Shown: in pieces, positions 34,035 to 52,159 of the stretch
Position numbering within the stretch: the first letter of the stretch is position 1
Layout of the letters: every line of letters begins with the position of its first letter
NCBI RefSeq assembly: GCF_963675165.1
Contig: NC_087385.1
Location: 82,501 to 146,500 of the forward strand
Length of the DNA: 64,000 nucleotides
From: Halichondria panicea
Lineage: Eukaryota; Porifera; Demospongiae; Suberitida; Halichondriidae
Direction: 5' to 3'
Program-made: the position numbers and the translations under genes
The notes under the pieces: generated by a model
What the model was told of the DNA's origin: nothing
Seen by the model: only the letters and a program-made list of their open reading frames with translations
The model's database searches: none

Positions 34035-36440
34035 ATGCCTTCACTGGGAGGTCTCCTGAGGGCGGGTAGTGTGGCTGTGCTGAGTATGAGTGGTGGACTC
34101 TGCTATGGCTACTTCACCTTCCATCAGTGGATGTTTGATACCGTGTTTATGCCAATAACAAGGCAACTGGACCCTGAGACAGCACACTTGTCTGCAGTGG
34201 CTCTGGCTGCAAGAGGATGGCTCCCTCGAGACAAGAGCAAGGATCCTGACATTCTGGTGAACCTGCAGTATAGCGCTGGTGTCTATTAATATAGAGAAAC
34301 TGATCTTGTGGGTACTACCGTATAGCGGGTTATTTTCGAGCACTAAATTTTCAGATTTATACCCAAACAAAACATTTCTATTTTTGAGAACAGAGGTTCA
34401 AATGACCACACCCCTACAGTAGAGTTTCAATAAACTGTATTTCTGAGTCAATCCTTGAATAACCCACTATACGCTATCATAGATGGCTTGTAGTGTATTG
34501 ACTTGCCCCCCCCCCCCCCTCCAGCGTACTAGTGTGTGGGGTCTGTCTCTCTCCAACCCCCTCGGGCTGGCAGCTGGGTTTGACAAACATGCTGAGGGCT
34601 ACCAGGCTCTATTAGAGATGGGGTTTGGGCTGGTTGAGGTGGGGAGTGTGACCCCTCATCCCCAGGCTGGGAACAATAGGCCCAGAGTATTCAGGCTGGA
34701 GGAGGACAGAGCTGTCATCAACAGGTCAGCTAGCTGTGGTGGTGTGTGTACTGTTGTGGGGCTTAGTTCCAGGTCAGCTAGCTGTGGTGGTGTCTGTAGT
34801 GCTGTGGGGCTTAGTTCCAGGTCAGCTAGCTGTGGTGGTGTGTGTAGTGTTGTGGGGCTTAGTTCCATAGATTATAGGTTGCAAGTAAGTATGAGGTACA
34901 CCTTACCTGAATTAATATTTGATGTACAAACGGTTATCTGCGTTTGTGTGTGTGCATTTCTTATTATCAGTAGCAGAATTTAATTTTCAATTCAAGATTT
35001 TCTCTCTTTGCAGATATGGATTCAACAGTCACGGCCATGCTGTGGTCAAGGATCGACTGAGAGGCTGGAAGCAAGCCAAAGAGAGGCCCTCCCTGCAACA
35101 CAAGCTGTTGGGGGTCAACCTTGGTAAGAACAAGAGCAGCCCTTCACCAGAGCAGGACTATGTGAGAGGAGTGAGGGAACTGGGGGCATCTGCTGACTAT
35201 GTGGTGATCAATGTGTCCTCTCCCAACACTCCCGGGCTAAGAGACATGCAAGGCAGGCAGGCACTAGAGACACTACTGGATAAGGTGATCACTCCACTGC
35301 TGTATTATAGCTAGATTTTATCTCTTTTCCCCACCTTTCAGTCAGTGAAGTCATTGAGTACATAAGTAACATTCTTACTTTACTGCATAATATTATTTGG
35401 ATCTGAACTACTTTTAAATACAATTTCTATACTTTTCTTGCTTGTCTGTAGCTCCTAGGGCATAGTCTTGTTATGTTTATACCTGTGTCTTACCTGTTGC
35501 ATATTCCATATATAATTATATGACGTGCAGGTGCTTGCAGAGAGGGACAGTCTCCCTCACCCACTGCCCCTGCTCGTTAAGATTGCACCTGACCTCAGTC
35601 AAGAGGACAAACGAGACATTGCCATCGTGGTAACAAGAGAGAAGGTCAGTGCAGACTTGATTGTAGAGCTGAAATGACAATTTTTTGTATACATGTAGGG
35701 TGGTGTTGATGGGTTGATTGTCTCCAATACCACAGTATCGCGACCTTTGACCCTTACTAGCAGCTACCAGGGAGAGGGGGGTGGTCTCAGTGGAGAGCCT
35801 CTCAAGGAACTGGCCACACAGACCATCAGGGACATGTACTCTCTCACTCAAGGTGAGGAGGGCACCAATGGAAAGCTTCCCACACCCGTATAGTACTAGG
35901 TACTTGAATTTTGTGGAATGGCCTCTAAAAAATGTTGTTGAATACATTTTGCGCTATTCATAGCTAAGCATTTTGTGGCCCTACATTTCGTGGAGGATTG
36001 CTAACCCATGGAAATTAAGTACCTCGAAAATGTTTCAGTATACGGTAGATAGTTGTTTGTAGTTGGATAGAACTAGTAAAGAGCACATGATTAATATGGT
36101 GTAAACCATGCATCGCCATTTTACAGTTTCTAAACAATAATTATATACATTTTGTGTTTGGCTGCTTTTTGCCGTAGGTGAGGCTGTTCTAATGTGTACA
36201 CCATCTCTTCGTGCAGGGGAAATCCCCATCATTGGTGTTGGGGGTGTGTCTAGTGGTCAAGATGCCTACAACAAGATAGTGGCTGGTGCTAGTCTGGTGC
36301 AGCTCTACACGTCACTGTCCTACGAGGGTCCCCCTGTCATTGGGAGGGTTAAGAGAGAACTGGCGTCCATTCTCAAGGAGAAGGGATTCACCAGCGTCAC
36401 ACAAGCAGTCGGATGTGAACACACAAACACAATCAAATGA
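34035..36440 (+). CDS. DHODH: Dihydroorotate dehydrogenase (quinone), mitochondrial
   Basis: Six exons: 34035-34256, 34525-34724, 35014-35284, 35531-35644, 35699-35852, 36217-36440; 394 aa, the usual class 2 length. It oxidises dihydroorotate to orotate in pyrimidine synthesis, passing electrons to ubiquinone at the inner mitochondrial membrane. The N-terminus has a basic start and a hydrophobic segment ([16 protein letters not shown]), as expected for an anchored class 2 enzyme. Family motifs: [48 protein letters not shown] with the catalytic Ser, [36 protein letters not shown]. The last exon was duplicated 5.2 kb downstream as a dead copy. Confidence 0.96.
34720..34868. repeat. 48-bp repeat carrying a 5' splice site, 3 copies
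   Basis: The DHODH donor AG/GTCAGCTAGC at 34724/34725 opens a 48-bp unit (GTCAGCTAGCTGTGGTGGTG... ending AGTTCCAG) present three times. Units are open in the DHODH frame, so using donor 2 or 3 would insert 16 or 32 residues ([16 protein letters not shown] type) between NR and YGFNSHG. Confidence 0.9.
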
Positions 36441-36728
36441 TAGCGTATTCTACTATGTCCTTATTTGTGTTCTGTACCACAGCATTAGTGAGCTTCAGTT
36501 TCGCTCATCGCTATTAAAAATTATATATCTCTCAGCTGTTAGACGTAGGTATGGCCAGCTACCCTCCTATCTTCCAACCATAGATTGGCCACGGGTAAGC
36601 TTGAAAATTGGGGTTTCATCAATAATTATTGTGGTTGGCATAATTAAAACGCAACACATTCCATCACCAAATTCATTGACATAAGGCTCCCTCGGGGTCT
36701 GGCCACGGATTTCACTACAAGAGGTTAG
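36441..36728. other. DHODH to AIRIM-like intergenic gap
   Basis: The 288-bp gap has no coding signal. A similar sequence lies before the second AIRIM-like gene, which shows it is part of the duplicated block. Confidence 0.6.
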
Positions 36729-37648
36729 ATGGTGGATGAAGTACTGTTGAGAGCTTATGATGAGGTACTGCTGTGGGAGGATTGCAGGGACAAGGCCAGT
36801 CGTCTCCTCTCCTCTCTGGCTAATCTAGTGGAGCAGTTGAACACAGTACACTCCTGTATGAGTCAGCCTGGCAAGCTGGGAGTGTTGTGTCAGCATTCCC
36901 AGGCTCTGTACTGTCTGCAAGGCAAACTGGTGGAGGCCATGGAGAGAGCACTTGTCTCTGTGCAGGCTGAGAGGTGGGTGTGTTTGTCCGTGTGTGTGTG
37001 TGTGTGTGTGTGGGAGGTCATTGCTCTCAATGGTAGTGTTTGTTACACAGATGCAAGATGCTTGAGATCGTGTGTTTACTGAAGAAATGCTCAAGGGAAG
37101 CAGAAACAAAGCTGAAGCACATAACAGGTTAGCACTATTAATTTGTATTTGCGACCTAAATTATCAGCTCCATAATTGACCCAAAATAGTACCCGTATGT
37201 TGTAGCTTTTCTATTTCTCAAAGCATTGTTTAGTCGACTTATAGATCTCAATAATTAGTACATTAATACAGTGTATGGTTGAGTTGCCCTGTCTGATGCA
37301 TGCAGGGAGATGCAGTGTTGAGAGTGTGTGCTGCAGGACTAGTCAGACCTTCTCCCCTGCTGAGCAATGTGGTTGGTTGAGACTCATCCATGCTGCCTAC
37401 ACTGCTGACACTGAGGACAAGGCTCTGGCTGTGGATACTGTACAGTACACTGTCCATGGGGTGGAGGAGGCCCTCACTGTGTGGGCAAGAGATCCTGTGG
37501 AGAGCAGTGGTGAGTACTGCAGTACACGAGTTTGGATAGTTTATTATCAATTAATTTTACAGAGGCAGTGAATTTGCTGAGGTACTCCATTGGTGCAAGG
37601 GAACAGTTTCGACCAGATTTAGCTGCTAAAACTCAAAGAACAATATAG
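36729..37648 (+). CDS. AIRIM: AIRIM/C1orf109-like protein, copy 1
   Basis: Four exons, 36729-36973, 37051-37127, 37306-37509 and 37563-37648, give 203 aa, the same length as human AIRIM as I recall it. Resemblance: LLSSLANLVEQLNTV against the human LLSSLSNLAEQL region, a helical middle (MERALVSVQAERCKMLEIV) and a later helix (CGWLRLIHAAYTADTEDKAL). AIRIM works with AFG2 ATPases in cytoplasmic maturation of the pre-60S ribosome. Similarity is modest, so the assignment is probable only. A second intact copy lies at 41,959. Confidence 0.6.
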
Positions 37649-37850
37649 ACAAATTCATATAATTTTTTATATTATAATTATTATAATATAATTATATATT
37701 TTTTGTATTTGTATTTGCATCTTTTGTTGTGCCAAAAAACCCTTGACATAATTATGCATGAGCTATACAAGATACGCCCACTTTCTTAGCTAGCCTGGCT
37801 ACCAGTCTAGGGCTGAGACAACAAACCACAACAACACCCATCTTATAACA

Positions 37851-39861
37851 ATGGCGGATGTTCCTGCAGCGTTTCGAGATCAACTCAAAGCTTTCGAACT
37901 TGATGTTGTCCATTTCACTGGTGAGGAACTAGGAAAAGGCTCTTATGGAAGTGTAGAAATTGTAGAAGTGACCGGAGAACGCTGTGCAGCAAAAATTCTC
38001 CATGAAGCTTTAGTGGAATCTAACTCAAGGTTGCCCAACCAGAGGGCTAGAGGCCGTGGATACCAGCCAAGATCTCTCATAGAAGCCTTCACGACTGAAT
38101 GTACGCTAATGAGTGAAGTTCGCCATCCTAACATTGTGAGGTTTCTGGGTATTTGCTATCATAGGCCGGGGGAAAGCATTCCAGTCATTGTTATGGAGCT
38201 GCTCAAAACCTGCTTACACGAGTTACTTGAGTCCGAGACGAGAAAAAGCCAAGTTATACCGCTTTCAGTAAAGCTGTGTATCTTGTTGGATGTCTCTAAA
38301 GGCTTGGTACATTTGCATAGCCTGGATATTGTTCATCGTGATCTGACCGCTCGCAATGTTTTGTTGAGTCAATCTCTCACTGCTAAAATAGCTGATCTGG
38401 GTATGGCTCGTTTGATTGAGTTGAAACCTGGCCGACAAGAAGCGACGATGACAAAAGGTCCTGGAAATGCCAACTACATGCCACCAGAGGCCAGAGATGG
38501 TGGTCCAATGACAGCCCAGTATGGCAAACCAATCGACTGCTTCTCCATGGGCCACCTCATTCTGTTCACTACCACACAGGAATTTCCTGAGCCACTGTAT
38601 CCAACTTACTTCGACAGTCAATCAAAGACAACCAAAGTTCGTACAGAGATTGAGCGACGTGAAGATAGTTTCCAAGCTGCCGTCACAGAAGTTGGGCAGG
38701 ATCATCCGCTGCTGCAGGTGGCCTCACAATGCTTACAGAACAACCCTCAGGTTAGGCCAATAGTTTCTGAGATAATGATGCAAATTCAAGAAGAAGCTGT
38801 AGGTGAACTACGACAGAAAAATTTAAAACTTGAGTCAGATTTGAATGAACATCAACGTCAATCTCAACAAGTTATCGATGAACTTACACGCGATGTTGAG
38901 GATCTCCAGAGCAAACACGTTGAGGCAGTCAAGGAAAAGGAAGCTCTGTTGAAGAAACTGGAGCAACAACAAGAGGTAAGATGACATTCATGTTTATACC
39001 GGGGGTGAGGTATACTGTAAAGCGGAAATGTATTATAGTGTTGTATTTGTGTCATGCATGCTGATCAATTGTAAATTGTTGCAGGTTCACAAGCCCAAAC
39101 CAGTCATACGGAATGAAGTTAGCTACCCACCTAAGACGCCATTTTCACAAGAACAAACACCTCCTAATACTGCCATTGCCAACACTGTGCCTTATGATGC
39201 AGTGGGTGAAATATCCGAAGAACATATTGTTGATCCTGAAGCCAATAAAGAAGAACACAGAGGTGATACAAGAGATGATAATTTGGTGACACCAGAATGG
39301 TTGAACGAAATTGCTTCTGAAGATCGTTATGGCTATGATAACTTAAGGCAATCTAAGGGCTTCAAAAATTACGTCAAAGCAGCCCCTGACTTGAAGCAGA
39401 AGACGGCGGTATCTGAGACCCTTGGCCACCAACAAACCAATGAACCATCACCTAACCTACCTAACCTGGACACTCCCGAACCTGATACTACTCGAGTACA
39501 AGCTTACGGCTGGCAACACAATGATTTTGAAAATAGACCAGCTGGACATAAACCAATAGCTAAGCGTCGAAATAAACTTGGTGTAGAAAAATCTGCCACT
39601 GATTCACATGTACCTACACTCACTATCGAGACTCCCTGCAAACCTTACACAAGCCCACTGAGCAGCTTGGAACATCAATCAGTGTCATCGAGTGATTCTG
39701 AAGACTTACCTAACCCACCTATCCTGGACACTCAAGAGCCTGATACTACTCGAGTACAATCAGTGTCATCGAGTGATTCTGAAGACTTACCTAACCCACC
39801 TATCCTGGACACTCAAGAGCCTGATACTACTCGAGTACTTTATAGAGATACAGCGTTTTGA
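37851..39861 (+). CDS. Tandem-array protein kinase 1 (TK/TKL-like), no zinc finger
   Basis: Two exons, 37851-38975 and 39085-39861, give 633 aa. The kinase domain covers about residues 18-290: Gly loop GKGSYGSV (28-35), Lys48 in CAAK, Glu83, HRDLTARN (162-169), DLG instead of DFG (182-184), PPE (211-213), distal Arg in QVRP. All catalytic residues are present. A predicted coiled coil (about 305-375, Glu/Gln/Lys-rich with heptads) follows, then a disordered tail with repeats of LDTPEPDTTRVQ and SVSSSDSEDLPNPPILDTQE. The tail stops at YRDTAF without the Cys4 finger of the other copies, so the 3' end looks truncated. Upstream ATACGCCCACTTTCTTA is shared with the second copy (ATACGCCCA). Confidence 0.88.
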
Positions 39862-40276
39862 AGAACACTAGTCAGGGAAAAATTCGTACAAAAATTTACC
39901 GCATTTTAATGTACTTGGGCGGGACTTATGAAATTTGTTGGTAAGGTTAGGGTATTGTGATCACTCATGAATATTCATGAGTTTAATTCTGTCAGCTTTT
40001 TCTCTTTTGCACCGGGTCCAACATCTCTAGCTCAGCATGCCCACGCTCATTTTTCACCCTTCTACCTTTTTTTATTTTTTATAATTATAATAGGAAAAAG
40101 AGCATGTATACATGTACATAATAATTTATTGGGAACAGTTACAGTTAATTAAATTTGAATTCTACCCTCCTAACTCTACGTCTATTTCTTTCTTTATTCC
40201 TCCAATTAATACCGTATTTTATCTCATTGAACGATTATACAGTATTTTATCTTATTTAACGATGTGATAAAGAACA
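39862..40276. other. AT-rich spacer after kinase 1
   Basis: No gene is seen. Contains T-rich stretches and AATTAATACCGTATTTTATC-type sequence common in old short transposons. Confidence 0.5.
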
Positions 40277-40285
40277 GAAAAGGAG

Positions 40286-41055
40286 TAGACTCGCAAGCCA
40301 CTCCCTTTTCTCTGATTGGACGGGGGCGGGAGAAAAGGGACTGGTGACTCTGGGCTACATTTTGTGTCTCTACCAGAATTTGGGTAGAGATTATTCATTG
40401 ATTTTTCCACGTGATCCAAAAATTGCGTGAGGTTAAGTAGAATTGCGTAGCCTGCAAAAGTGATCGCGGGCTTCTTAGCTACAGTTTAAGAATGGATGCT
40501 AGTGCTAGAAAAGAGAAGATGATGGAGTAATAACATCATCAGGCATTCAGCTAGGATATAGTCATCTAAGACACCAGCAGAGATTAGCTTGTTTTAGTTT
40601 TACGTGATGAGAACTGGCAGCCGAAAGTCATTGGTTACCTAAAGCTTTTAATAACCTGTACAATACAAGACAGATAATGGCAGAGGGCAGCAGTTGAATT
40701 GAGAGTAGTCAGACTTGTACAAGCTGTCTTAAACCGCTGCCACTCCTCGGTTCAAAGAAGGACTGCCAAGATTTCTACGTTCATCAGCTGTTCCATGCTA
40801 ATCCACAAGTTGTGGCACAACAGACACTGGTACAAGGATCTATAATATCAAAAGGCTGGCTAGATAGATCTGTATACTTGTCTTCTCTGAGCTGTGTGTC
40901 TTTAGCTTTTGACGCATCAGAATAAATTGGATAATTTGCACGTGACATTAATATTTAATAGCATTCCTGATTTACACAAAATGTAGCCCAGAGTCACCAG
41001 TCCCTTTTCTCTCGCCCCCGTCCAATCAGAGAAAAGGGAGTGGCTTGCGAGGCTA
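40286..41055. mobile_element. 770-bp DNA transposon with about 80-bp TIRs, non-autonomous
   Basis: The ends are long inverted repeats: left TAGACTCGCAAGCCACTCCC... to GGGCTACATTTTGTGT (about 40,286-40,371), right ACACAAAATGTAGCCC... to GGGAGTGGCTTGCGAGGCTA. They differ at only a few bases. A 9-bp direct repeat GAAAAGGAG flanks it (40277-40285 and 41056-41064). Long TIRs with a 9-bp target duplication fit Mutator-like elements; a hAT-type element is the alternative. No transposase is encoded. Confidence 0.8.
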
Positions 41056-41064
41056 GAAAAGGAG

Positions 41065-41350
41065 AGGCACAGCCAGCCCCGGATATTTTCTATTTGAACG
41101 CTAGGTCAATAAGCGAAAACTTGGCCTGGGAGCTATGGCGCAATATTTAGTGCCAAAATTAGAGTATATACGTATTTGTATCTGGGCCAGGGTGAACTGG
41201 GGTAGACACTAGATGATAGTGATACACTTTTTAGTGTAGACTATCACTTGGGGTACTCTTTATCACTTTAGGTACACAAATAATTCTTTTGAGGGTACCT
41301 GCTCTTCCATATTATAATGACCTGAAGAGTACCCTCAAATATATTATTTT
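41065..41350. other. Spacer with two small fold-back sequences
   Basis: Between the transposon and the DHODH relic lie a small imperfect hairpin (41,215-41,245, GATAGTGATACACT with AGTGTAGACTATC) and a fold-back (about 41,285-41,348, TTTTGAGGGTAC with GTACCCTCAAA). No gene. Confidence 0.5.
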
Positions 41351-41627
41351 CCGTAGGTGAGGATGTTCTAATGTGCTGTGTACACCATCTCTTCGTGCAG
41401 GGGAAATCCCCATCATTGGTGTTGGGGGTGTGTCCAGTGGTCAAGATGCCTATGACAAGATATAGCGGCTGGTGCTAGTCTGGTGCAGCTCTACACATCA
41501 CTGTCCTACGAGGGTCCCCCTGTCATTAGGAGGGTTAAGAGAGAACTGGCGTCCATTCTCAAGGAGAAGGGATTCACCAGCGTCACACAAGCAGTCGGAT
41601 GTGAACACACAAACACAATCAAATGAT
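41351..41627 (+). pseudogene. Dead copy of the DHODH last exon
   Basis: From CCGTAGGTGAGGATG onward the sequence matches 36,171-36,440 almost base for base, including the acceptor GTGCAG. In the copy the stretch after GCCTATGACAAGATA has a two-base insertion that creates TAG and shifts the frame. No other DHODH exon is present. It is the left edge of the duplicated block that also carries AIRIM-like copy 2 and kinase 2. Confidence 0.9.
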
Positions 41628-41958
41628 AGCTAGTTAAAGTCTACTATATCCTTAATATTTCATAAGTTGTGTCTGCACCACAGCATCAGTGAGCTACAGT
41701 TCCGCTCATCGCTATATATTATTTCGTTAAAATTATATATCTCTCAGCTGTTAGACGTAGGTATAGCTAGCTCCCTCCTATCTTCCACCCATAGATTGGC
41801 CATGGATAAGCTCAAAAATTGAGGTTTCAATCTATCTTTCTTTTTCGGTTTTCAATGTTGTGGCTGGCATAGTTAAAACACAACACATTCCCATCACCAA
41901 AATTAATTCATAGTTCAATAAGGCTCACTCGAGGTCTGGCCGCGGATTCGAGAGCTAG

Positions 41959-42871
41959 ATGGATATGGATGAAGTACTGTTGAGAGCTTATGAGGAGGTA
42001 CTGCTGTGGGAGGGTTGCAGGGACAAGGCCAGTCGTCTCCTCTCCTCTCTGGCTAATCTAGTGGAGCAGTTGAACACAGTACAGTCCTGTATGAGTCAGC
42101 CTGACAAGCTGGGAGTGTTGTGTCAGCATTCCCAGGCTCTGTACTGCCTGCAAGGCAAACTGGTGGAGGCCATGGAGAGAGCACTTGTCTCTGTGCAGGC
42201 TGAGAGGTAGGTGTGTTTGTCCGTATGTGCGTGTGTATGTGTGTGTGTGTGTGGGAGGTCATTGCTCTCAATGGTGGTGTTTGTTACACAGATGCAAGAT
42301 GCTTGAGATTGTGTGTTTACTGAAGAAATGCTCAAGGGAAGCAGAAACAAAGCTGAAGCACATAACGGGTCAGCAGTATTAATTTTATATTTGCGACCTA
42401 AATTATCAGCTCCATAATTGATCCAGATCCAAAATAGTACCTATGTTGTAGCTTTTCTATTTCTCAAAGCATTGTTTAGTCGACTTATAGATCTCTGTTG
42501 TATGGTTGAGTTGCCCTGTCTGATGCATGCAGGGAGATGCAGTGTTGAGAGTGTGTGCTGCAGGACTAGTCAGACCTTCTCCCCAGTTGAGCAATGTGGT
42601 TGGTTGAGACTCATCCATGCTGCCTACACTGCTGACACTGAGGACAAGGATCTGGCTCTGGAGGTTGTACAGTACACTGTCCAGGGGGTGGAGGAGGCCA
42701 TCACTGTGTGGGCAAGAGATCCTGTGGAGAGCAGTGGTGAGTTAACATTTCTCAGTAATAATTACATGTATAATATGACAATTTCTTGCAGAGGCAGTGA
42801 ATTTGCTGAGGTACTCTGTTCATGCAAGGGAGAATTTATTACTAGCGTCTAAAACTCAAAGAACAATTTAA
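41959..42871 (+). CDS. AIRIM: AIRIM/C1orf109-like protein, copy 2
   Basis: Exons 41959-42206, 42292-42368, 42533-42736 and 42792-42871 give 202 aa in phase, with all splice sites intact. It differs from copy 1 by scattered substitutions (DMDEVLLRAYEEVLLWEGC at the start; SVHARENLLLASK near the end), so both may be functional. Duplicated together with the DHODH last exon upstream and a kinase gene downstream. Function as for copy 1, with the same reservations. Confidence 0.6.
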
Positions 42872-43486
42872 TGCTCCGTTCCCACTCATATTTCCCTGTT
42901 TAGAATATGTATGGTACAATACAATGTATATACTACTAACATTTTCACCTGGTACTTGGTGCTGTATGAGGTTATAATTTATAGCGGATTTGTTTCTAAT
43001 GTAATGCTGTGCATGGACTAGCCTCGAGACCACGCCGATTAATCAGCCTGGATTCGAGGCTATGCATGGACTACCCTCGATTCCAGGCGCGGTGCAGCCA
43101 TAATTATCTATGGTGCAGCTAAAGTAATTAGCCTCTGATTACTCTCAGCAAGAGTCTCCTAATGAACTCTTGCTCTCAGCAAAAACATACGGCGGGGCGT
43201 GGGCTTATTATAAATTTTTTGCGGGGGGGGGGGCGTGAAAGCTCTCCATCTAGCTCGGGGCTAAGAAAAATTACAGGAAGTGGTGATAATTATGTTTAAT
43301 ACTGTAGCACAATTAACAGTTAAAAGTTGAGGATGGGGGCAGGGGGGAACATGCCCCTCTTGAGGGGATATGATTATCCACCCACGCACCGCCCATGTCG
43401 TATGTTTACCGGTACGCATGCGCGTGTCTCAACCCCTACAAGATACGCCCATTATTTTCCCATGTGTCAAAAGAGATCTTAATTAA
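42872..43486. promoter_or_regulatory. Kinase 2 upstream region with NRF1-like site and hairpin insertion
   Basis: A 43-bp palindrome (43021-43063, GCCTCGAGACCACGCC ... GGATTCGAGGC) is flanked by the direct repeat GCATGGACTA (43011-43020, 43064-43073), so it looks like a tiny transposon. Nearer the gene, ACGCATGCGCG (43,414-43,424) is a near-perfect NRF1-type palindrome, followed by ACAAGATACGCCCA, also found before kinase 1. A G-rich tract lies at 43,222. Confidence 0.55.
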
Positions 43487-46301
43487 ATGGCAACCCAAAT
43501 TTATAGTACAAGAGAAAAAGTTCAAGCTGAGTTTTATCAACAACTTAAAACATTCGAGCTCCTCAATGTTAAACTTACTGGTGAAGAGCTAGGTGGTGGC
43601 TCATTTGGGTATGTAGTTGTTGTCGAAGTACCTGGAGCACGACCGGATACACGATGTGCAGCCAAGATTCTCCATAGCCAGTTGGTACAAGAAGTTCTTA
43701 ATCTTGAAGACAGAGAAAAATTACAACCAAGAGGTAATTATCGCCGTAGATCTCTGATTGAATCGTTTAAGAATGAGTGCATATTGTTGAGTGAGATTAG
43801 GCACCCCAATGTTGTTGAGTTCTTTGGTATTTGCTACCCTACTGGAGTGACCTTACCTGCTCTTGTTATGGAGCTACTGATGACAAATTTGCACGATTAT
43901 CTTGAGGACAATACCAAAAAGAAAGTACTTATTCCATTATCAATGAAGAATGACATTCTGCTTGATATATCGAAAGGTCTTGTATACTTGCACAGAAAAA
44001 GCATAATACATCGCGACCTCACAGCAGCCAATATCTTGCTCACTAAATCTCTCACTGCTAAAATAGCTGACCTAGGCATGGCTCGTCTAATAGCTGAGCA
44101 GCATGAGGCCAAAATGAGTGTACTTCCTGGAAATCCGAATTACATGCCACCAGAAGCAATTACTGGTGATCAGTATTCTGCCATCTATGGAAAGCCGATT
44201 GACTCCTTTTCCATGGGACACATCCTTCTGTTCACTCTCACTCAAATGTATCCAGAGCTTTTATCTGCAAAGTATCTTGATTCAGCATCTGGAAAAAATG
44301 TTGCTCGCTCTGAGGTTGAACGACGTGAATATAGTTTTCAAGCTCTGTATGCATTCATTGAAAAAGGTCATCCTCTGGCTCAACTTGCTAGAATGTGTCT
44401 TCACGATAATCCCGAAATTCGGCCATCAGCTGATGAGATAATGCAACAGTTTCTTGAGCTGCAGAATGAAATAATAAAGCAAGAAAACCATCGACTTGTA
44501 TATGATATTCAAACATGGGAACATACGACTGGTGCACTAGAGAAAGAAAACGCTGAATTACGAAGAGAAAGAGATAGCGTTTTACTGGGATTGTCTCACT
44601 TTAAGCATCTTGTCGAAGAATTACAACAAACAAACACAGAACTTAATAGTGACTTAGAATATTTTCAAAACTTCAGTAGAGACTTAAAAAAAGCAAATGC
44701 AATCCTTTCACAAAAAGTAGTCGAAAATCAACAAGCATTGTCCGATCTTCAGAACAAATATTTTAAGATGCTGATTGAAAAGAAGGTAAGTGGAAATGTT
44801 TCATAATTATATCTGACTGTTGCTTAATTTCAATGAAACTGTACAATGCTTACATGTGTATTATTTGCAGGTCGATAAAGTATGTAGCCCTGTGCCTAAT
44901 GATGCAATGGGTGAAGCCTTCGAAGGACTTAGTCTGATTGGAGGAGATGACGGACCTTGTAGCATGGTTAATGCTCGCTCTAAACACAATAATGATTCGT
45001 ACTTGAATAGTCTAGCATCAAATAACGCTGAGTTCAACAAACAGGCCGAAAATGCTTGGAAAGTGGACACACCAACTCAGGAACAAACACTTTCTAATAC
45101 TGCCATTGCTGTCCCTTGTCTTAATGGCTATGATAAGGGATTTAAAAAGTATGTCACACCTAACCTACCTAACCTGGACACTCCCGAGCCTGATGCTACT
45201 CGAGTACAAGCTAATCACTGGCAACACAATACGTGTGATTATGAAAATAGACCAGCTGGATATAAACCAGCTCCTGAAGTAAAACAGAAGACGGAGGTAC
45301 CTGAGACTTCTGGCCACCAACAAACCAATGAACCATCACTTAACCTACCTAACCTGGACACTCCCGAGCCTGATACTACTCGAGTACAAGCTTACGACTG
45401 GAAACACAATACGTGTGATCATGAAAATAGACCAGCTGGAAATAAACCAATAGCTAAACGTCGAAACAAACTTGATGTGGAAAAATCCTCCACTGGTTCA
45501 CACCTACCCACACCTAGTATTGAGACTCCCTACAAACCTCACACAAGTCCACTGAGCAGCTTATTGTTATCGAATGATTCCGGTGACTTTCGTAGTGCAC
45601 GCAGTCAACAGCCTACAACTCTCAATAACACAACAGATGATCATTTGTATCTAAAACAAGATGATTTTGTAGTTGTGAGTAGTCCAGAATCTTCAACACA
45701 GCCTACCACTACTGATAATATCGGGAGTCAAGAACGTGAGCACACAGGAGAATATGAATATGTTAGCATAGATTCTTCAACCACTACTGGGAGTCAAGAA
45801 CGTGAGCACACAGGAGAATATAAAGATGTTAGAATAGATTCTTCAACACAAGAACTGATTAATACCATCATCAATTTAGATTCAAGTGAGCAGCCTCCCT
45901 CACGTCCTCCTGGTAGCTTGTCTCCACAGCCTGCCTCACGTCCTCCTGGTAGCTTGTCTCCACGTACACGCCCGAGATTAGCAGCAGTGTCTAAAGGAAG
46001 CCCTACCACATCTGGATCGTCCATCGTTGCGACACCACACTCGGCTACTGCTACTGCTCTGTCTCCACTGTCACCAGATGTGGCAGTGTCTAAGAAGCAT
46101 CTTGGTGCAATGTTGTCTAATGCTGTGGGTCGTGAACAATCAACCACACATACTAATTTAGATAAAGGTCCTCGATCTCCAGTTAAGTCTCCGCTGCCTA
46201 CCAATGTGGATGGAGCATGGACTTGTGATTATTGTACTAATCTTGTGTTTGATGGTAACATTTGTGATGTTTGCTCTCATGCACGTACCACTCTAGTATA
46301 A
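43487..46301 (+). CDS. Tandem-array protein kinase 2 with C-terminal zinc finger
   Basis: Exons 43487-44785 and 44871-46301 give 909 aa. Kinase domain: GGGSFGYV, CAAK, HRDLTAAN, DLG, MPPEA, EIRP; all catalytic residues present. Next is a long coiled coil (about 325-432, motifs LEKENAELRRERDSVL and LQQTNTELNSDLEYF). The disordered tail repeats LPNLDTPEPDTTRVQA three times or nearly so and GSQEREHTGEY twice. The end is a Cys4 finger of RanBP2-like layout (WTCDYC ... ICDVC). The tail has few YxN motifs. Position in the block shows it arose with AIRIM-like copy 2 from the 36.2-40 kb segment. It is less like kinases 3 and 4 than those are to each other. Confidence 0.88.
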
Positions 46302-46481
46302 CTTTTTTTGCTCATGTGATTCATTCGTTTTGAAGTGATAAATGTCATATAATAATTATTCATGTGATCAGTGTTATTAATTTTATATACATAGTAGCAA
46401 TTAATTGATGCTCCGATGGATAGTTAACTTATTAGCAACTAAAATTTACTGCCATGTTGCATGATTAATTGCTCTCCACAG

Positions 46482-46586
46482 CGTTTGTTGGATGAATCAT
46501 GGACTTGTAGCTATTGTACTAATATTGTGTTTGATAGTATTGACATTTGTGATGTTTGTTCTCATGCCCGCACCACACTTGTATAA
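46482..46586 (+). pseudogene. Orphan zinc-finger terminal exon
   Basis: After a good acceptor (CTCTCCACAG) comes a 34-codon open stretch ending in TAA at 46584-46586. It contains SWTCSYCTN, ICDVC and SHARTTLV, nearly the same as the C-terminus of kinase 2 just upstream. It could be an alternative last exon of kinase 2 or a relic of a deleted kinase copy. Confidence 0.6.
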
Positions 46587-46651
46587 CTGTGCTGTTATCA
46601 TTGTTTTGTTTGTGTGTGCTCATCAAACATGTTGTTGTCTTAAAAATTAAA

Positions 46652-46887
46652 GCCTCGAGACCATGAACGGCCTGGCCTTATCTCGGGCTACAAATAATCG
46701 TGCGATTACTGTTATATAACCATGCATGGCATTGTGATGTTTAGTAGCTACGTGTGGTATATAGTTATTAGTAACCAATTTGCAGTATAATTATATAAAA
46801 TTATACCCAGCGTTAAATAATTAATTAACTTTGTTGAGGTTTTGGTTTTGGTGATTAGTAGCCTCGAATCAGGCCTGGTCTCGAGGC
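46652..46887. mobile_element. 236-bp element with GCCTCGAGACC inverted ends
   Basis: The left end GCCTCGAGACC is inverted at the right end (GGTCTCGAGGC). The right part is itself palindromic (GCCTCGAATCAGGCCTGGTC...). The same ends occur in the 43-bp hairpin at 43,021. Located in the kinase 2 to kinase 3 gap. Confidence 0.5.
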
Positions 46888-46900
46888 TAGGTGATTAGAC

Positions 46901-46927
46901 GTATAAATACCACATTTGCGCATGCCC
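46901..46927 (+). promoter_or_regulatory. Kinase 3 promoter motifs: TATA-like and NRF1-like
   Basis: GTATAAATAC (46901-46910) and TTGCGCATGCCC (46916-46927) lie 33-59 bp before the kinase 3 ATG. The same TGCGCATGCCC precedes kinase 4. Confidence 0.5.
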
Positions 46928-46959
46928 AAGGTTGAGCGAGATACACCCACTTTCTCACA

Positions 46960-49201
46960 ATGGCAGAACATCAACAAACCTTTGTACAACAGCTAAAAGA
47001 GTTTGAGCTACCTAATGTGGAGTTCACTGGAGAGAAGCTCCGCGGAGGCAGTGGTTCTTATGGCTATGTCGAGGTGGTCCTGATAGCAGGAACACGTTGT
47101 GCAGCAAAGTTCTCTCATCAAGTCTTTGAAGAGTATCAATGGAAGAAATCTCCAGCAGACTATTTCAGAAAAGAATGCACTCTCATGAGCCGGCTCAGGC
47201 ATCCACATATTGTCCAGTTCCTGGGTGTCTGCTGCCGCCACCAAGAAGCCCTGTTACCTGCACTAGTCATGGAGCTACTCATGACCTGCCTGCACAACTA
47301 CCTAGAGGCAGCAAAGACAGCATCTCTCCCTATGGCCATCAAGCATAACATACTCCTGGGTGTCTCCAAAGGCCTGGTGTACCTGCACAGCATGGATATT
47401 GTCCATCGCGATCTCACTGCTAGGAACATTCTTTTATCAGATTCCCTCACCCCCAAGATCGCAGACTTGGGTATGGCGCACCTGCAAGCTGGTAGAGAAG
47501 CTACTACTATGACTAATACCCCAGGTAATGCCAATTACATGCCACCAGAGGCTAAGGACAATGACATCACTCGCTACGGGAAACCAATCGATTGCTTTTC
47601 AATAGGTCATCTCATTCTCTTCACTATCACTCAAGTAGTTCCTATTGTGTTGGGTTCAACTTACTTCAACGAAACAACTGGTCTTCTGATGGCCCGCACT
47701 GAGATGGAACGACGTGAACAAGGCTTCAAAATATCCAGGGAAATAGTTGGCCTTGACCACCCTCTGGTCCTGCTAGCCTGTGACTGTCTGGCAGTTAGGC
47801 CAAGTCTGCGACCAACAGCACCTCAAATTATGCAGAAACTTCAGACAATGTCAATCATCCCGTATCGAAGTTGGGAACTGACAAAACACGAAATGATGCA
47901 GGTTGTGATCAAGCATGAAGATACCATTCACAAGTTGCAGGAAAGCTTGGCTTCGAAGCAGACAGTGACTGAGCAAAACACAGCGGCACAAGAAGAGCCT
48001 ATATTGAGTGAACTCTACCAACAAGCACAGGTATACATGGGTATCAGTATTCAACTAACAATAATATTATAATACTTGCTATATAGTTTAACCTATTCTA
48101 TCTCCGATAATTATAATATTATTACAGGCTGATGACCAACCGTTGGAAAGTTCGTACGTCAATGTCCCACAATCACCAACCACACTGCAGTGGAGCTCTG
48201 ATGAGTCAGAACATGATTATGTGAACGATATGCATGTGAAAAAGCCATCACCTGGTTGCAAGCAAAACACTCCCATACAGCATGCCAAAAGCTTTCCTCA
48301 ATTACTGCTGCAGGATGATGATCGAACATTGAAACGTCCGTACGTCAATGTCCCACAATCACCAACCACACTGCAGTGTAGCTCTGATGAGTCAGAACAT
48401 GATTATGTGAACGATATGCAGCCATCACCTGGTTGCAAGCAAAACACTCCCAAACAGCATGCCAAAAGCTTTCCTCGATTACTGCTGCAGGATAATGACC
48501 GAACATTGGAGGATCCATACGTTAATGTCCCACAATCACCAACCACACTGCAGTGGAGCTCTGATGATGATTCAGAAGATGATTATGTCAACCAGCCGAT
48601 GTACACGAATAGGAATATTGAGTCACCAGTGGTGTACGACGACGTACCCCCCAAATTTCAATTAACGTTTAAGTCCCGGCCTAAGACTAGTAAGCCGTCA
48701 ACCTTGCCTCCAGTAGCCATCGCTCCTAACAACAGCACAATAAAGAGCCCACTAGTCAGTAGACTATACCGCAAAGAAGTACCACCATCTCCCAACAATC
48801 AGTCAATGGCAAGAAGAAAAATCGAATCGTTGCAATTGAAAAAGCAGTCATCACTGTCCTCTCTAGTGACCTTCCCCAACTCTCCCGTTCTCTCTCCTCA
48901 CAAGACAACCTTCCAATCTGGGTACCGGTCAAGAGTAAGTGCTATGACTGGACTAGAGAGCCCTAAACTCTCACGCACTAAATCCTTGCAAAGCACAAAG
49001 GCACCCACAAACAGAGAGCCTGGATCACTGACTGAAGTAGTGGCTAAAATGACACCAGTGACCAACAAAGAAAGTCGCTCTTTTAAGGGTGAACGGTTCC
49101 GCAAGAGATCCATCAGTGCAGAGGCAGTGCTTGGATCCTGGACTTGTAGGCACTGCGGTAAACTGAGGTCTGTGGGGACTGTGTGTGATGTATGCACGTA
49201 G
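46960..49201 (+). CDS. Tandem-array protein kinase 3 with YVNV tail repeats and zinc finger
   Basis: Exons 46960-48030 and 48128-49201 give 714 aa. Kinase domain: GGSGSYGYV, CAAK, IVHRDLTARNILL, DLG, MPPEA, SLRP. A short coiled segment follows (about 310-350). The tail has three repeats of about 57-60 residues, each with YVNVPQSP and then DYVND or DYVNQ, plus VYDDVPP. YVNV is the classical GRB2-SH2 docking sequence when phosphorylated, and YxN in general fits GRB2. A basic Ser/Pro-rich stretch follows, then a Cys4 finger (WTCRHC ... VCDVC) at the very end. AATAAA at 49257-49262. Closely related to kinase 4. Substrates and partners are inferred. Confidence 0.88.
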
Positions 49202-49307
49202 TACTGCAAACACATTTAGTTATACTAGTGAACTGTTTGTTTTTACTCGTGTTTTTAATAAAACCACAAAACTTATCAGTAACATGCAACTTAGTTATGT
49301 ATACAGT

Positions 49308-49430
49308 TCTCCAAGAGGGGGTGGAGTCAGTGGCGGACAGTGAAGCCAATGAGCTAATGTTTACACGGAAACTATAGGGGGCTGCCAGATATAGGCGTGG
49401 GCTCGATCAGGCTTACTACTGTACTACTAT
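49308..49430 (-). pseudogene. Relic of the BLOC1S4 last exon
   Basis: CCAAGAGGGGGTGGAGTC, GACAGTGAAGCCAATGAGCT, TAGGGGGCTGCCAG and GCGTGGGCTC match the last exon of BLOC1S4 at 52,340-52,445 in the same order and orientation, with indels that break the frame. It sits after kinase 3 just as BLOC1S4 sits after kinase 4, so the kinase 3/4 duplication unit included the end of BLOC1S4. Confidence 0.8.
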
Positions 49431-49657
49431 ATATGTTTCGACAATGAGTCAATTATAGATCTATACGATTGACAACAATGGGTGCAGTAAATGTCAGTGA
49501 CTTCAACCGAAGCTCAGGAAATAATAGGCAACAATCAACCACATTCATAGTTATAGCATGGTTACAGTATCTATGGTGACTTCATGCAAATTACCAAATA
49601 GATCCAGTGCGCATGCCCAAATTAGGTGCACAACAGCGAGACGCCTCCAGGTATGCT
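49431..49657 (+). promoter_or_regulatory. Kinase 4 upstream region with NRF1-like site
   Basis: TGCGCATGCCC (49608-49618) is 40 bp before the chosen ATG, matching kinase 3. An upstream in-frame ATG lies inside this motif, but the downstream ATG aligns with the start of kinase 3. Confidence 0.5.
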
Positions 49658-52159
49658 ATGGCAGACATCATCAGTGAACAGACCTTTGTAGAACAGCTAA
49701 AAGAGTTTGAGCTACCTAATGTGGAGTTCACTGGAGAGAAGCTCCGCGGAGGCAGTGGTTCTTATGGTTACGTTGAAGTTGTCCTGATAGCAGGAACACG
49801 TTGTGCAGCAAAGTTCTCTCATCAAGTCTTTGAAGAGTATCAATGGAAAACATCTCCAGCGGACTATTTCAGAAAAGAATGCACTCTCATGAGCCAGCTC
49901 AGGCATCCACACATTGTCCAGTTCCTGGGTGTCTGCTGCCACCACCAAGAGGCCATGTTACCTGCAATAGTCATGGAGCTACTCATGACCTGCCTGCACA
50001 ACTACCTAGAAGTAGCAAAGACAGCATCTCTCCCTATAGCCATCAAGCATAACATACTCCTGGGTGTCTCCAAAGGCCTGGTGTACCTGCACAGCATGGA
50101 TATTGTCCATCGCGATCTCACTGCTAGGAACATTCTTTTATCAGATTCCCTCACCCCCAAGATCGCAGACTTGGGTATGGCGCGCCTGCAAGCTGGTAGA
50201 GAAGCTGCTACTATGACCAATACCCCAGGCAATGCCAATTACATGCCACCAGAGGCTAAGGACAATGACATCACTCGCTACGGGAAACCAATCGATTGCT
50301 TTTCAATAGGTCATCTCATTCTCTTCACTATCATTCAAGTATTTCCTATTGTGTTGGGTTCAACTTACTTCAACGAAACAACTGGTCTTCTGATGGCCCG
50401 TACTGAAATAGAACGACGTGAACAAGGCTTCAAAATAACCAGGGAAATAGTTGGCCTTGACCACCCCCTTGTCCTGCTAGCCTGTGACTGTCTGGCAGTT
50501 AGGCCAAGTCTGCGACCAACAGCACCTCAAATTATGCAGAAACTTCAGACAATGTCAATCATCCCGTATCGAAGTTGGGAACTGACAAAACACGAAATGA
50601 TGCAGGTTGTGATCAAGCATGAAGATACCATTCACAAGTTGCAGGACAAATTGGCTTCGAAGCAGACAGTGACTGAGCAAAACACAGCGGCACAAGAAGA
50701 GCCTGTATTGAGTGAACTCTACCAACAAGCACAGGTATTGGGTATCAGTATTCAACCAACAATAGTTACTAATTTAACCTATATTCTATATCTACTGCAG
50801 GCTGATGACCAACTGTCGGAAGGTTTGTACGTCAATGTCCCACAATCACCAACCACACTGCAGTGGAGCTCTGATGAGTCAGAATATGATTATGTCAACG
50901 ATATGCAGCCATCACCTGGTTGCAAACAAAACACTCCCAAACAGCATGCCAAAAGCTTTCCTCGATTACTACTACATGATGATGACCGAACATTGAAACG
51001 TCCGTACATCAATGTCCCACAATCACCAACCATACTGCAGAGCTCTGATGAGTCAGAAGATGATTATGTGAACGATATGCATTTGAAAAAGCCATCACCT
51101 GGTTGCAAGCAAAACACTCCCAAACAGCATGCCAAAAGCTTTCCTCGATTACTACTACATGATGATGACCGAACATTGAAACGCCCGTACGTCAATGTCC
51201 CACAATCACCAACCACACTGCAGAGCTCTGATGAGTCAGAATATGATTATGTAAACGATATGCATTTGAAAAAGCCATCACCTGGTTGCAAACAATTGCA
51301 AAACACTCCCAAACAGCATGCCAAAAGCTTTCCTCGATTACTACTACATGATGATGGCCAACTGTTGGAAGGTTCGTACGTTAATGTCCCACAATCACCA
51401 ACCATACTGCAGTGGAGCTCTGATGAGTCGGAAGATGATTATGTCAACCAGCCGATGTATATGCACCAGTCATCACCTGATTGCGAGCAAGACACTCGCA
51501 AACAGCATGCCAATACCCTTCCCCAGTACGTGAACGTCCAATCACCAAAACTAGATGTGGATTACGATGAAGTACCCCCAAAATTCCAATTTTTTTCGGA
51601 GTCTCCTAAAGCTAAGAAGCCGTTAGCCTTGCCTCGGCGCACTCGGGAAAATCCAGTAGCCATTGCTCTTAACAACAGCACAACAAAGAGCCCACTAGTC
51701 AGTAGACTATACCGCAAACAAGTACCACCATCTCACAACAATCAGTCAATGGCAAAAAGGAAAATCGAATGTAAAAGGCAGTCATCACTGTCCTCTCTAG
51801 TGACCTTCCCCAACTCTCCCGTTCTCTCTCCTCACAAGACAACCTTCCAATATGGGTACCGATCAAGGGTGAGCGCTATGACTGGACTAGAGAGCCCTAA
51901 ACTCACACGGACTAAATCCTTGCAAAATATAGAAGCACCTCAGAACAAAAATCCTGAACCATGGGCTGAAGTAGTTGCGACACCAGTGACCAACAAAGAA
52001 AGTCGCTCTTTTAAGGGTGAACGGTTCCGCAAGAGATCACTCAGTGCAGATGCAGTGCTTGGATCGTGGACTTGTAGGCACTGCGGCAAAAAACTGAAAT
52101 TTGTGTCTGGAACTGTGTGTTACGTATGTTGTACTGCACACACATTAAATTTTAGTTAG
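49658..52159 (+). CDS. Tandem-array protein kinase 4 with expanded YVNV tail and zinc finger
   Basis: Exons 49658-50734 and 50801-52159 (811 aa) by analogy with kinase 3. The 66-bp intron has no stop and is a multiple of three, so the unspliced message is also open and would add 22 residues. Kinase domain nearly identical to kinase 3 (GGSGSYGYV, CAAK, HRDLTARN, DLG, MPPEA). The tail has four full repeats (YVNV, YINV, YVNV, YVNV, each followed by DYVND or DYVNQ) and an extra QYVNVQSP, giving nine YxN motifs against six in kinase 3, plus DYDEVPP. The end is a Cys4 finger (WTCRHC ... VCYVC), with a longer loop than in kinase 3. The start was chosen at the ATG matching kinase 3; an upstream in-frame ATG could add 15 residues. 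Confidence 0.88.
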   Translation: MADIISEQTFVEQLKEFELPNVEFTGEKLRGGSGSYGYVEVVLIAGTRCAAKFSHQVFEEYQWKTSPADYFRKECTLMSQLRHPHIVQFLGVCCHHQEAMLPAIVMELLMTCLHNYLEVAKTASLPIAIKHNILLGVSKGLVYLHSMDIVHRDLTARNILLSDSLTPKIADLGMARLQAGREAATMTNTPGNANYMPPEAKDNDITRYGKPIDCFSIGHLILFTIIQVFPIVLGSTYFNETTGLLMARTEIERREQGFKITREIVGLDHPLVLLACDCLAVRPSLRPTAPQIMQKLQTMSIIPYRSWELTKHEMMQVVIKHEDTIHKLQDKLASKQTVTEQNTAAQEEPVLSELYQQAQVLGISIQPTIVTNLTYILYLLQADDQLSEGLYVNVPQSPTTLQWSSDESEYDYVNDMQPSPGCKQNTPKQHAKSFPRLLLHDDDRTLKRPYINVPQSPTILQSSDESEDDYVNDMHLKKPSPGCKQNTPKQHAKSFPRLLLHDDDRTLKRPYVNVPQSPTTLQSSDESEYDYVNDMHLKKPSPGCKQLQNTPKQHAKSFPRLLLHDDGQLLEGSYVNVPQSPTILQWSSDESEDDYVNQPMYMHQSSPDCEQDTRKQHANTLPQYVNVQSPKLDVDYDEVPPKFQFFSESPKAKKPLALPRRTRENPVAIALNNSTTKSPLVSRLYRKQVPPSHNNQSMAKRKIECKRQSSLSSLVTFPNSPVLSPHKTTFQYGYRSRVSAMTGLESPKLTRTKSLQNIEAPQNKNPEPWAEVVATPVTNKESRSFKGERFRKRSLSADAVLGSWTCRHCGKKLKFVSGTVCYVCCTAHTLNFS

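Follow-up and report, generated by a model that had tools for sequence, protein, structure and literature searches.

Can a protein kinase outside the tyrosine kinase (TK) group carry, in the same polypeptide chain, an array of tyrosine motifs for the adaptor GRB2? This question is raised by a tandem array of kinase genes in a 64-kb stretch of the genome of the sponge Halichondria panicea (the window, i.e. the whole 64,000-nucleotide stretch analysed). Four intact kinase genes, here called K1, K2, K3 and K4, lie in tandem at 37851-52159 of this window, and the tails of the last two are rich in YxN motifs. The gene structure, the motif count, the restriction of the tail to K3 and K4, the active-site residues, the descent outside the TK group and the presence of GRB2 in the same genome could all be established directly. 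On this basis, we consider it quite possible, although short of probable, that K3 and K4 are kinases of the dual-specificity type, with tails that recruit several molecules of GRB2 through YVN motifs that are phosphorylated, perhaps by the kinases themselves. The unusual architecture itself is real in one recent gene pair of one genome, and combines a non-TK kinase that has residues of the dual-specificity type with a GRB2-type docking array.

The four genes, which like their repeats and fingers and the C1orf109-like genes described below are on the + strand, share a common layout. Each consists of two exons and one phase-0 GT-AG intron that separates a coiled-coil-like segment (assigned by eye) from the tail, so that the order is a kinase domain at the start, the coiled-coil-like segment, and a low-complexity tail in exon 2. 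K1 (37851..39861; exons 37851-38975 and 39085-39861) contains these three parts, and K2 (43487..46301; exons 43487-44785 and 44871-46301) has a long coiled-coil-like segment and a C-terminal finger after its tail. K3 (46960..49201; exons 46960-48030 and 48128-49201) has a short coiled-coil-like segment, a YVN-repeat tail and a finger, and K4 occupies 49658..52159 (exons 49658-50734 and 50801-52159). The 66-bp intron of K4 (50735-50800) is stop-free and keeps the frame; its retention would insert 22 residues between the coiled coil and the tail. K3 and K4 arose by recent tandem duplication and show 92% DNA identity across 1.6 kb, their kinase domains being 95% identical. The original prediction, made from this sequence alone, had described an array of four kinases beginning at 36729 and joined to a zinc finger; the four tandem kinase genes are there, but its start belongs to a C1orf109-like gene and K1 begins at 37851, and the C-terminal Cys finger is present in K2, K3 and K4 but absent from K1.

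The repeat array of K3 spans 48125..48592 with a 177-bp period and 2.6 copies according to Tandem Repeats Finder (TRF), and the repeat tail of K4 (50801..51547) comprises four units followed by a degenerate one that closes with YVNVQSP (51527-51547), tandem repeats being detected at 50907-51513. Each repeat unit carries one YVNV-PQSP and one acidic DYVN. K4 has nine YxN motifs (four YVNV/YINV-PQSP, one YVNV-QSP and four DYVN), and K3 has seven (three YVNV-PQSP, three DYVN and one YTN). The nine motifs originally counted in K4, including the four as YVNV or YINV followed by PQSP, are thus correct, but the six given for K3 become six YVN plus one YTN, the units are spaced by 59-63 rather than 57-60 residues, and the repeats that had been announced for an array of four kinases occur in K3 and K4 only. 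When each tail was shuffled 10,000 times, the mean number of YxN was 0.51 (maximum 4) for K3 and 0.90 (maximum 7) for K4, as compared with the observed 7 and 9, although the copies arose by tandem duplication and are therefore not independent. The tail of K1, which contains a perfect 81-bp (27-residue) duplication at 39676-39838, has one YxN, and that of K2, with a 66-bp duplication, has two; both numbers are at chance level, being reached by 40% and 21% of the shuffles, respectively. Furthermore, a protein search of the 131-Mb genome with the K4 tail returned two matches, K4 itself and K3, and a degenerate nucleotide pattern encoding Y[V/I/M]NVPQSP was found seven times in the genome, all within K3 and K4, with none for the control pattern. 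As the tail is confined to K3 and K4 in these genome searches, we rejected the possibility that it is a trait of the whole kinase family. The composition of the two tails suggests that they are disordered.

A reader for such motifs is encoded in the same genome. The GRB2 gene is located at C17:2774418-2777876, where five exon matches cover GRB2 residues 1-151 and 156-211, and the two exons that encode its SH2 domain share 77% identity with the human query and retain KYFLWVVKFNSLN, W121 included. It is this tryptophan of the GRB2 SH2 domain that imposes selectivity for Asn at +2. The specificity of the Grb2 SH2 domain is likewise described as dominated by the +2 Asn (PMC10065799). The proposal that the motif is of the GRB2 type is therefore borne out by the excess of YxN over shuffles together with a conserved GRB2 that keeps its specificity tryptophan, and the docking half of our reading, in which the YVN tails are putative GRB2 sites, appears well motivated. 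Beside the arrays, YDEVPPK in K4 (51563..51583) and its counterpart YDDVPPK in K3 (48635-48655, from the K3/K4 alignment) form a possible Src-SH2-type site with an acidic residue at +1 and an aliphatic one at +3; the Src SH2 domain is reported to prefer Asp/Glu at +1 and Ile at +3 (PMC10065799).

The kinase domains, on the other hand, are not of TK descent. In a tree of 37 rows, made up of 24 family rows and 13 others that include seven TKs of this genome, SRC, four references of the tyrosine kinase-like (TKL) group and STK11, the seven genome TK rows and SRC formed a clade at 100/99 with K1-K4 outside it, and the 24 family rows formed a branch of their own at 97/92. The profile scores of K1-K4 were 104-113 bits with PF07714 vs 114-124 bits with PF00069, and those of all five TK controls from the same genome were 281-335 vs 119-162 bits. 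Membership of K1-K4 in the TK group was rejected because they fall outside the TK clade and their weak PF07714 score is below that for PF00069. TKs are characterized by the catalytic loop HRDL[AR]A[RA]N and the P+1 loop P-[IV]-[KR]-W, the latter seen as KFPIKWTAPE, MLPIRWMPPE and VLPIRWMSPE in the controls (two controls had no pattern match); the P+1 loop of K1-K4, PGNANYMPPE or PGNPNYMPPE, differs from this pattern, while their catalytic loop is similar to that of TKs. The term tyrosine-kinase-like used in the original prediction is consequently apt for the catalytic loop but not for the descent of these proteins, since the phylogeny run as a check on it placed K1-K4 outside the TK clade.

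The family is likely to lie in or near the TKL group, though this assignment from sequence comparison is not settled. Its PDB matches are rich in TKL kinases (TNNI3K, IRAK4, CTR1, BRI1 and RIPK2), mixed with EGFR, STK11, WNK, JAK, CDK and PLK4; an EGFR chain in which two domains are joined tops the K4 and K2 lists by sum (for K4, 42 bits for each domain), and TNNI3K is second in the K4 search with 73 bits. In the tree, which holds few references, the family stands apart from the four TKL references and beside STK11, whose branch is very long. A search of the genome with the K4 domain gave 126 matches including K1-K4 (all 126 scored, from 849 first-look candidates), which are often clustered (C11 4.4-6.5 Mb, C3 0.87-1.7 Mb, C10, C1 and C13), and a C-lobe motif, [RV][ST]ExERR, marks 19 of the 24 family rows and none of the 13 other rows. 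Many of the C11 matches begin at query residue 69-71, their N-lobe being on another exon or missing, and are followed by a coiled-coil-like stretch. For two kinase frames on C11 the listed open lengths are 1914 and 1941 aa, which is owed to an unread stretch behind them. The nearest relative outside the array, at C17:4229712-4230638 (58%), resembles K1. This C17 paralogue, on the minus strand within C17:4224000-4233000, has an acidic tail repeat of its own (DPRDQW, three times); 5' of it lie tail-like sequence and a finger whose frame is lost after the first cysteine pair, a remnant that perhaps comes from a broken neighbouring or decaying copy. No close relative was found in bacterial and archaeal genomes, where the best 80 of at least 483 relatives (in at least 581 stretches) were at 24-35% identity, and none of 25 pattern matches in viral contigs was confirmed. 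Ten Wnt matches mark the genome with the kinase array as that of an animal.

The full set of catalytic residues is present in K1-K4, with DLG in place of DFG, and G8, G10, V15, K28, E50, H127-R128-D129, N134 and D147-L148-G149 are invariant in an alignment of seven sequences. K3 and K4 are thus probably active, intact kinases, presumably of the cytoplasm. The catalytic loop reads HRDLTARN in K1, K3 and K4 (50108..50131 in K4) and HRDLTAAN in K2, and the P+1 loop (PGNANYMPPE at 50225..50254 in K4) has Asn at the position of Thr201 of PKA (T201), so that K1-K4 have Thr rather than Lys at HRD+2 and Asn rather than Ser/Thr at T201. Asn at T201 is also found in LIMK1 (VGNPYWMAPE) and in TNNI3K (PGNLRWMAPE), whose family we take to be the one named HH498. 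A missing Ser/Thr at this position has been suggested to distinguish kinases that accept tyrosine, with HH498 among those predicted, and Cys or Asn occupies it in three of six tyrosine-phosphorylating TKL kinases of Dictyostelium (PMC1420674); tyrosine phosphorylation has been measured for TNNI3K and LIMK (PMC11136658). Nek10 is reported to require its HRD+2 Thr for tyrosine phosphorylation, a residue shared within the dual-specificity kinome only with TESK, and to retain Thr at APE-5, which makes the T201-type feature usual but not obligatory in dual-specificity kinases (PMC6570481). Judged from these residues, dual specificity of K1-K4 is plausible.

The Lys-free catalytic loop is not confined to the genes with YVN tails. 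Among 34 distinct family segments from the fetched loci, none has the HRD+2 lysine, and the residues at HRD+2 and T201 are S/T in 17, T/N in nine, T/T in five, S/N in two and T/A in one, the nine T/N segments being K1-K4, the C17 paralogue and four others. As the Lys-free loop is common to the family (34/34 segments), its origin is separate from that of the tails.

These observations can be combined as follows. The coiled-coil-like segment may hold two K3/K4 molecules together, and the paired kinases, possibly with a Src-type kinase, would phosphorylate the YVN tyrosines of the low-complexity tail. Each phosphorylated YVN could then dock the SH2 domain of the GRB2 encoded in this genome, up to six or seven on K3 and nine on K4, and the outcome would be an enzyme and a multivalent GRB2/SOS scaffold in one chain. 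The same scheme in its widest form, in which a non-TK lineage independently became a self-phosphorylating tyrosine scaffold with up to nine GRB2 sites, an output in the cytoplasm like that of receptor tyrosine kinases, and a valency that shifts by tandem duplication, is rather doubtful in our judgement.

A number of points weigh against the preferred reading of K3 and K4. Thr at HRD+2 is insufficient for tyrosine activity in Nek1, and Nek10 has as its second determinant an Ile at APE-4, as in TKs (PMC6570481). This Ile is absent from the array: the APE-4 residue is Ala in K1, K3 and K4 and Pro, the usual residue of Ser/Thr kinases, in K2 (elsewhere it is Pro in LIMK1 and Leu in TNNI3K). In addition, K1, K2 and the C17 paralogue have the same active site without YVN repeats, and enzyme and tail are therefore uncoupled. 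Between K3 and K4, the four changes in the coiled-coil segment (62 codons) are all non-silent, and an AlphaFold model of the K4 reading frame including the intron, built from six aligned sequences, had a mean predicted local distance difference test (pLDDT) score of 35.8, which is unusably low.

One may therefore ask whether phosphate could be supplied entirely by other enzymes. K3 and K4 would then be Ser/Thr kinases, and their tail, after phosphorylation in trans by Src-type TKs, would serve as a platform for GRB2 and make them scaffolds like FRS2, SHC and GAB. Src-type TKs are indeed encoded in the same genome, about half of the tail sites are in an acidic context such as SEDDYVND, the conserved YDEV/YDDV adjoining the repeats resembles a Src-SH2 site, and the kinase domains match the general Pkinase profile above PF07714. 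However, the active site lacks both signatures of a Ser/Thr kinase, the HRD+2 Lys and the Ser/Thr at T201, and we regard this explanation as unlikely.

It is also conceivable, though again unlikely, that the arrays are a minisatellite by-product, in which a tolerant low-complexity tail multiplied one ancestral YVN pair without any role in phosphotyrosine signalling. The window yields 88 TRF rows, some of them overlapping, and unrelated repeats are found in the tails after the same intron in the sister genes (81 bp in K1, 66 bp in K2 and DPRDQW in the C17 paralogue), i.e. the tail position in these genes breeds repeats generally, and the YVN tail is restricted to a pair of recent duplicates. 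The TRF rows include a 46-bp unit repeated 30 times at 25523-26900 and a 54-bp unit repeated 16 times at 2294-3166. Given the abundance of tandem arrays in the window and the unrelated tail repeats of the sister genes, the turnover of repeats may be mutational; the earlier suggestion that valency is evolving is right in that the repeat count differs (7 vs 9), but selection on valency need not be involved.

Comparisons within and between the two arrays bear on the same alternative. The ratio of non-synonymous to synonymous substitution rates (dN/dS) between K3 and K4 is lowest in the finger, at 0.16 over 23 codons, and amounts to 0.31 for the kinase domain (295 codons), 0.40 for the repeat region (167 codons) and 0.56 for the distal tail (159 codons), so that by this measure there is coding constraint overall; the climb from the kinase to the distal tail is what a minisatellite would predict, but the value for the repeat region is still only 0.40. 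Of the 29 columns in which six or more units can be compared, 20 are amino-acid-invariant and 17 of these are also codon-invariant, motif tyrosines included, so that the units of the array are too young to reveal selection. Judged by these codons, most of the identity among units is recent copying, with selection unproven, and this again counts against a selected docking array, as does the lack in K3 of the YVNV of the degenerate K4 unit (from the K3/K4 alignment). On the other side, YVN stands in three sequence contexts with distinct codons (TAC GTC AAT GTC; TAT GTG AAC GAT; TAC GTG AAC GTC), which is at odds with the by-product explanation. A further tyrosine, at the site two residues ahead of DYVN, is variable (H, H, D, Y, D, Y, D), and that of YVN is constant. 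In K4, the fifth, degenerate unit has changed at 8 of 20 residues in the flanks and at 0 of 7 in YVNV plus QSP, where the codons of the first V and of N have changed silently; this contrast between flank and motif is not significant, however (Fisher p 0.068). The variable upstream tyrosine and the pattern of the degenerate unit may be taken as hints in favour of the motif.

The finger of K2, K3 and K4, located at 46218-46274, 49139-49195 and 52067..52129, respectively, has the pattern W-x-C-x2-C-x9-11-C-x2-C, and a spare finger segment (LLDESWTCSYC...CDVCSHARTTLV) lies downstream of K2 at 46485..46583. The RanBP2/NZF zinc finger has the pattern W-x-C-x2-C-x10-C-x2-C. The Trp and Cys spacing of the three fingers fits the latter; yet none of them matched RanBP2 at E<=1, and assignment to a recognised Pfam family was rejected, as none scored above its cut-off. 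An innate-immunity-like expansion of the RIPK/IRAK/TAK1 type, in which function resides in the coiled coil and the finger (through oligomerisation or the binding of ligand or ubiquitin) and YVN is secondary, is very improbable. In its favour, the best PDB matches of the family include TNNI3K, IRAK4, RIPK2, TAK1 and plant receptor kinases, the 126 genome matches, many of them clustered, suggest fast expansion, and the finger has the lowest dN/dS, 0.16, on 23 codons only, but Pfam gave no death, TIR or other immune domain in the eight window stretches scanned, and the finger exceeds the cut-off of no Pfam family.

A C1orf109-like gene separate from the kinases occupies 36729..37602, its part at 36729-37016 matching PF15011 (C1orf109-like) with E 9.7e-7 in Pfam; we accordingly rejected this interval as an N-terminal part of the K1 kinase. 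The gene is duplicated at 41959..42831, the second copy having come from the duplication of 36167-37602, and the segmental duplication that carries it (36167-37602 / 41347-42831) shows 87.6% DNA identity. The open reading frame at 34483-34983 and the sequence before the duplication copies resemble dihydroorotate dehydrogenase. Between K1 and the second C1orf109-like copy, 40286-41055 is bounded by 82-nt inverted repeats (98% complementary, arms 606 nt apart) and looks like a terminal-inverted-repeat element.

If the preferred reading of K3 and K4 as GRB2-recruiting dual-specificity-type kinases is true, animal phosphotyrosine scaffolding arose on more than TK-group kinases, and a neighbouring lineage joined GRB2 via a docking array of its own; furthermore, the two genes would constitute a natural experiment in valency (7 vs 9 sites), useful for models of multivalent GRB2-SOS assembly. 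The finding also draws attention to a very large family of kinases whose active sites resemble those of dual-specificity kinases. The closest enzymatic parallels are TNNI3K, LIMK1/2 and TESK, TKL kinases with reported tyrosine phosphorylation, which likewise have no HRD+2 Lys; TNNI3K, LIMK1 and K4 share the Asn at T201. LIMK and TNNI3K contain LIM, PDZ and ankyrin domains. In contrast, the K genes gave no LIM, PDZ or ankyrin matches in Pfam, and the family did not group with TNNI3K in the tree. At HRD+2, TNNI3K and LIMK1 have Asn and K1-K4 have Thr, as is reported for Nek10 and TESK (PMC6570481). In Dictyostelium, SplA, Shk1, Dpyk2-4 and ZakA represent tyrosine phosphorylation by non-TK, lineage-specific TKL families (PMC1420674), as would the K kinases if they accept tyrosine. 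However, Dictyostelium is without the TK group, whereas many TKs coexist with K1-K4 in one genome, and a multi-GRB2 tail on these TKL kinases is not mentioned in those parts of PMC1420674 on which we draw.

With LAT, FRS2, GAB and SHC, K3 and K4 would share the presence of several pYxN sites per chain, their phosphorylation being predicted. These four proteins are non-kinases. For LAT, multivalent GRB2-SOS networks and their aggregation have been modelled with Grb2 valences of zero to three (PMC3291652); K3 and K4 differ in having 7 and 9 sites compared with this valence, and a kinase domain in the same chain. Large kinomes and kinase expansions are already known in sponges (PMC3538665, PMC3777111), and the family of K1-K4 differs from the expansions in Amphimedon, also a sponge, in its non-TK descent. 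No description of a kinase with such a multi-GRB2 tail was found in titles and abstract openings, in a search that left subscription journals mostly outside. Receptor tyrosine kinases such as EGFR and MET carry GRB2 sites in their tails, and it is these that K3 and K4 resemble in joining a kinase to its own docking tail. The K proteins, however, begin directly with the kinase (no search for signal peptides or membrane segments was made) and lie outside the TK clade, and a tail of this type on a non-TK kinase of the K3/K4 kind looks new.

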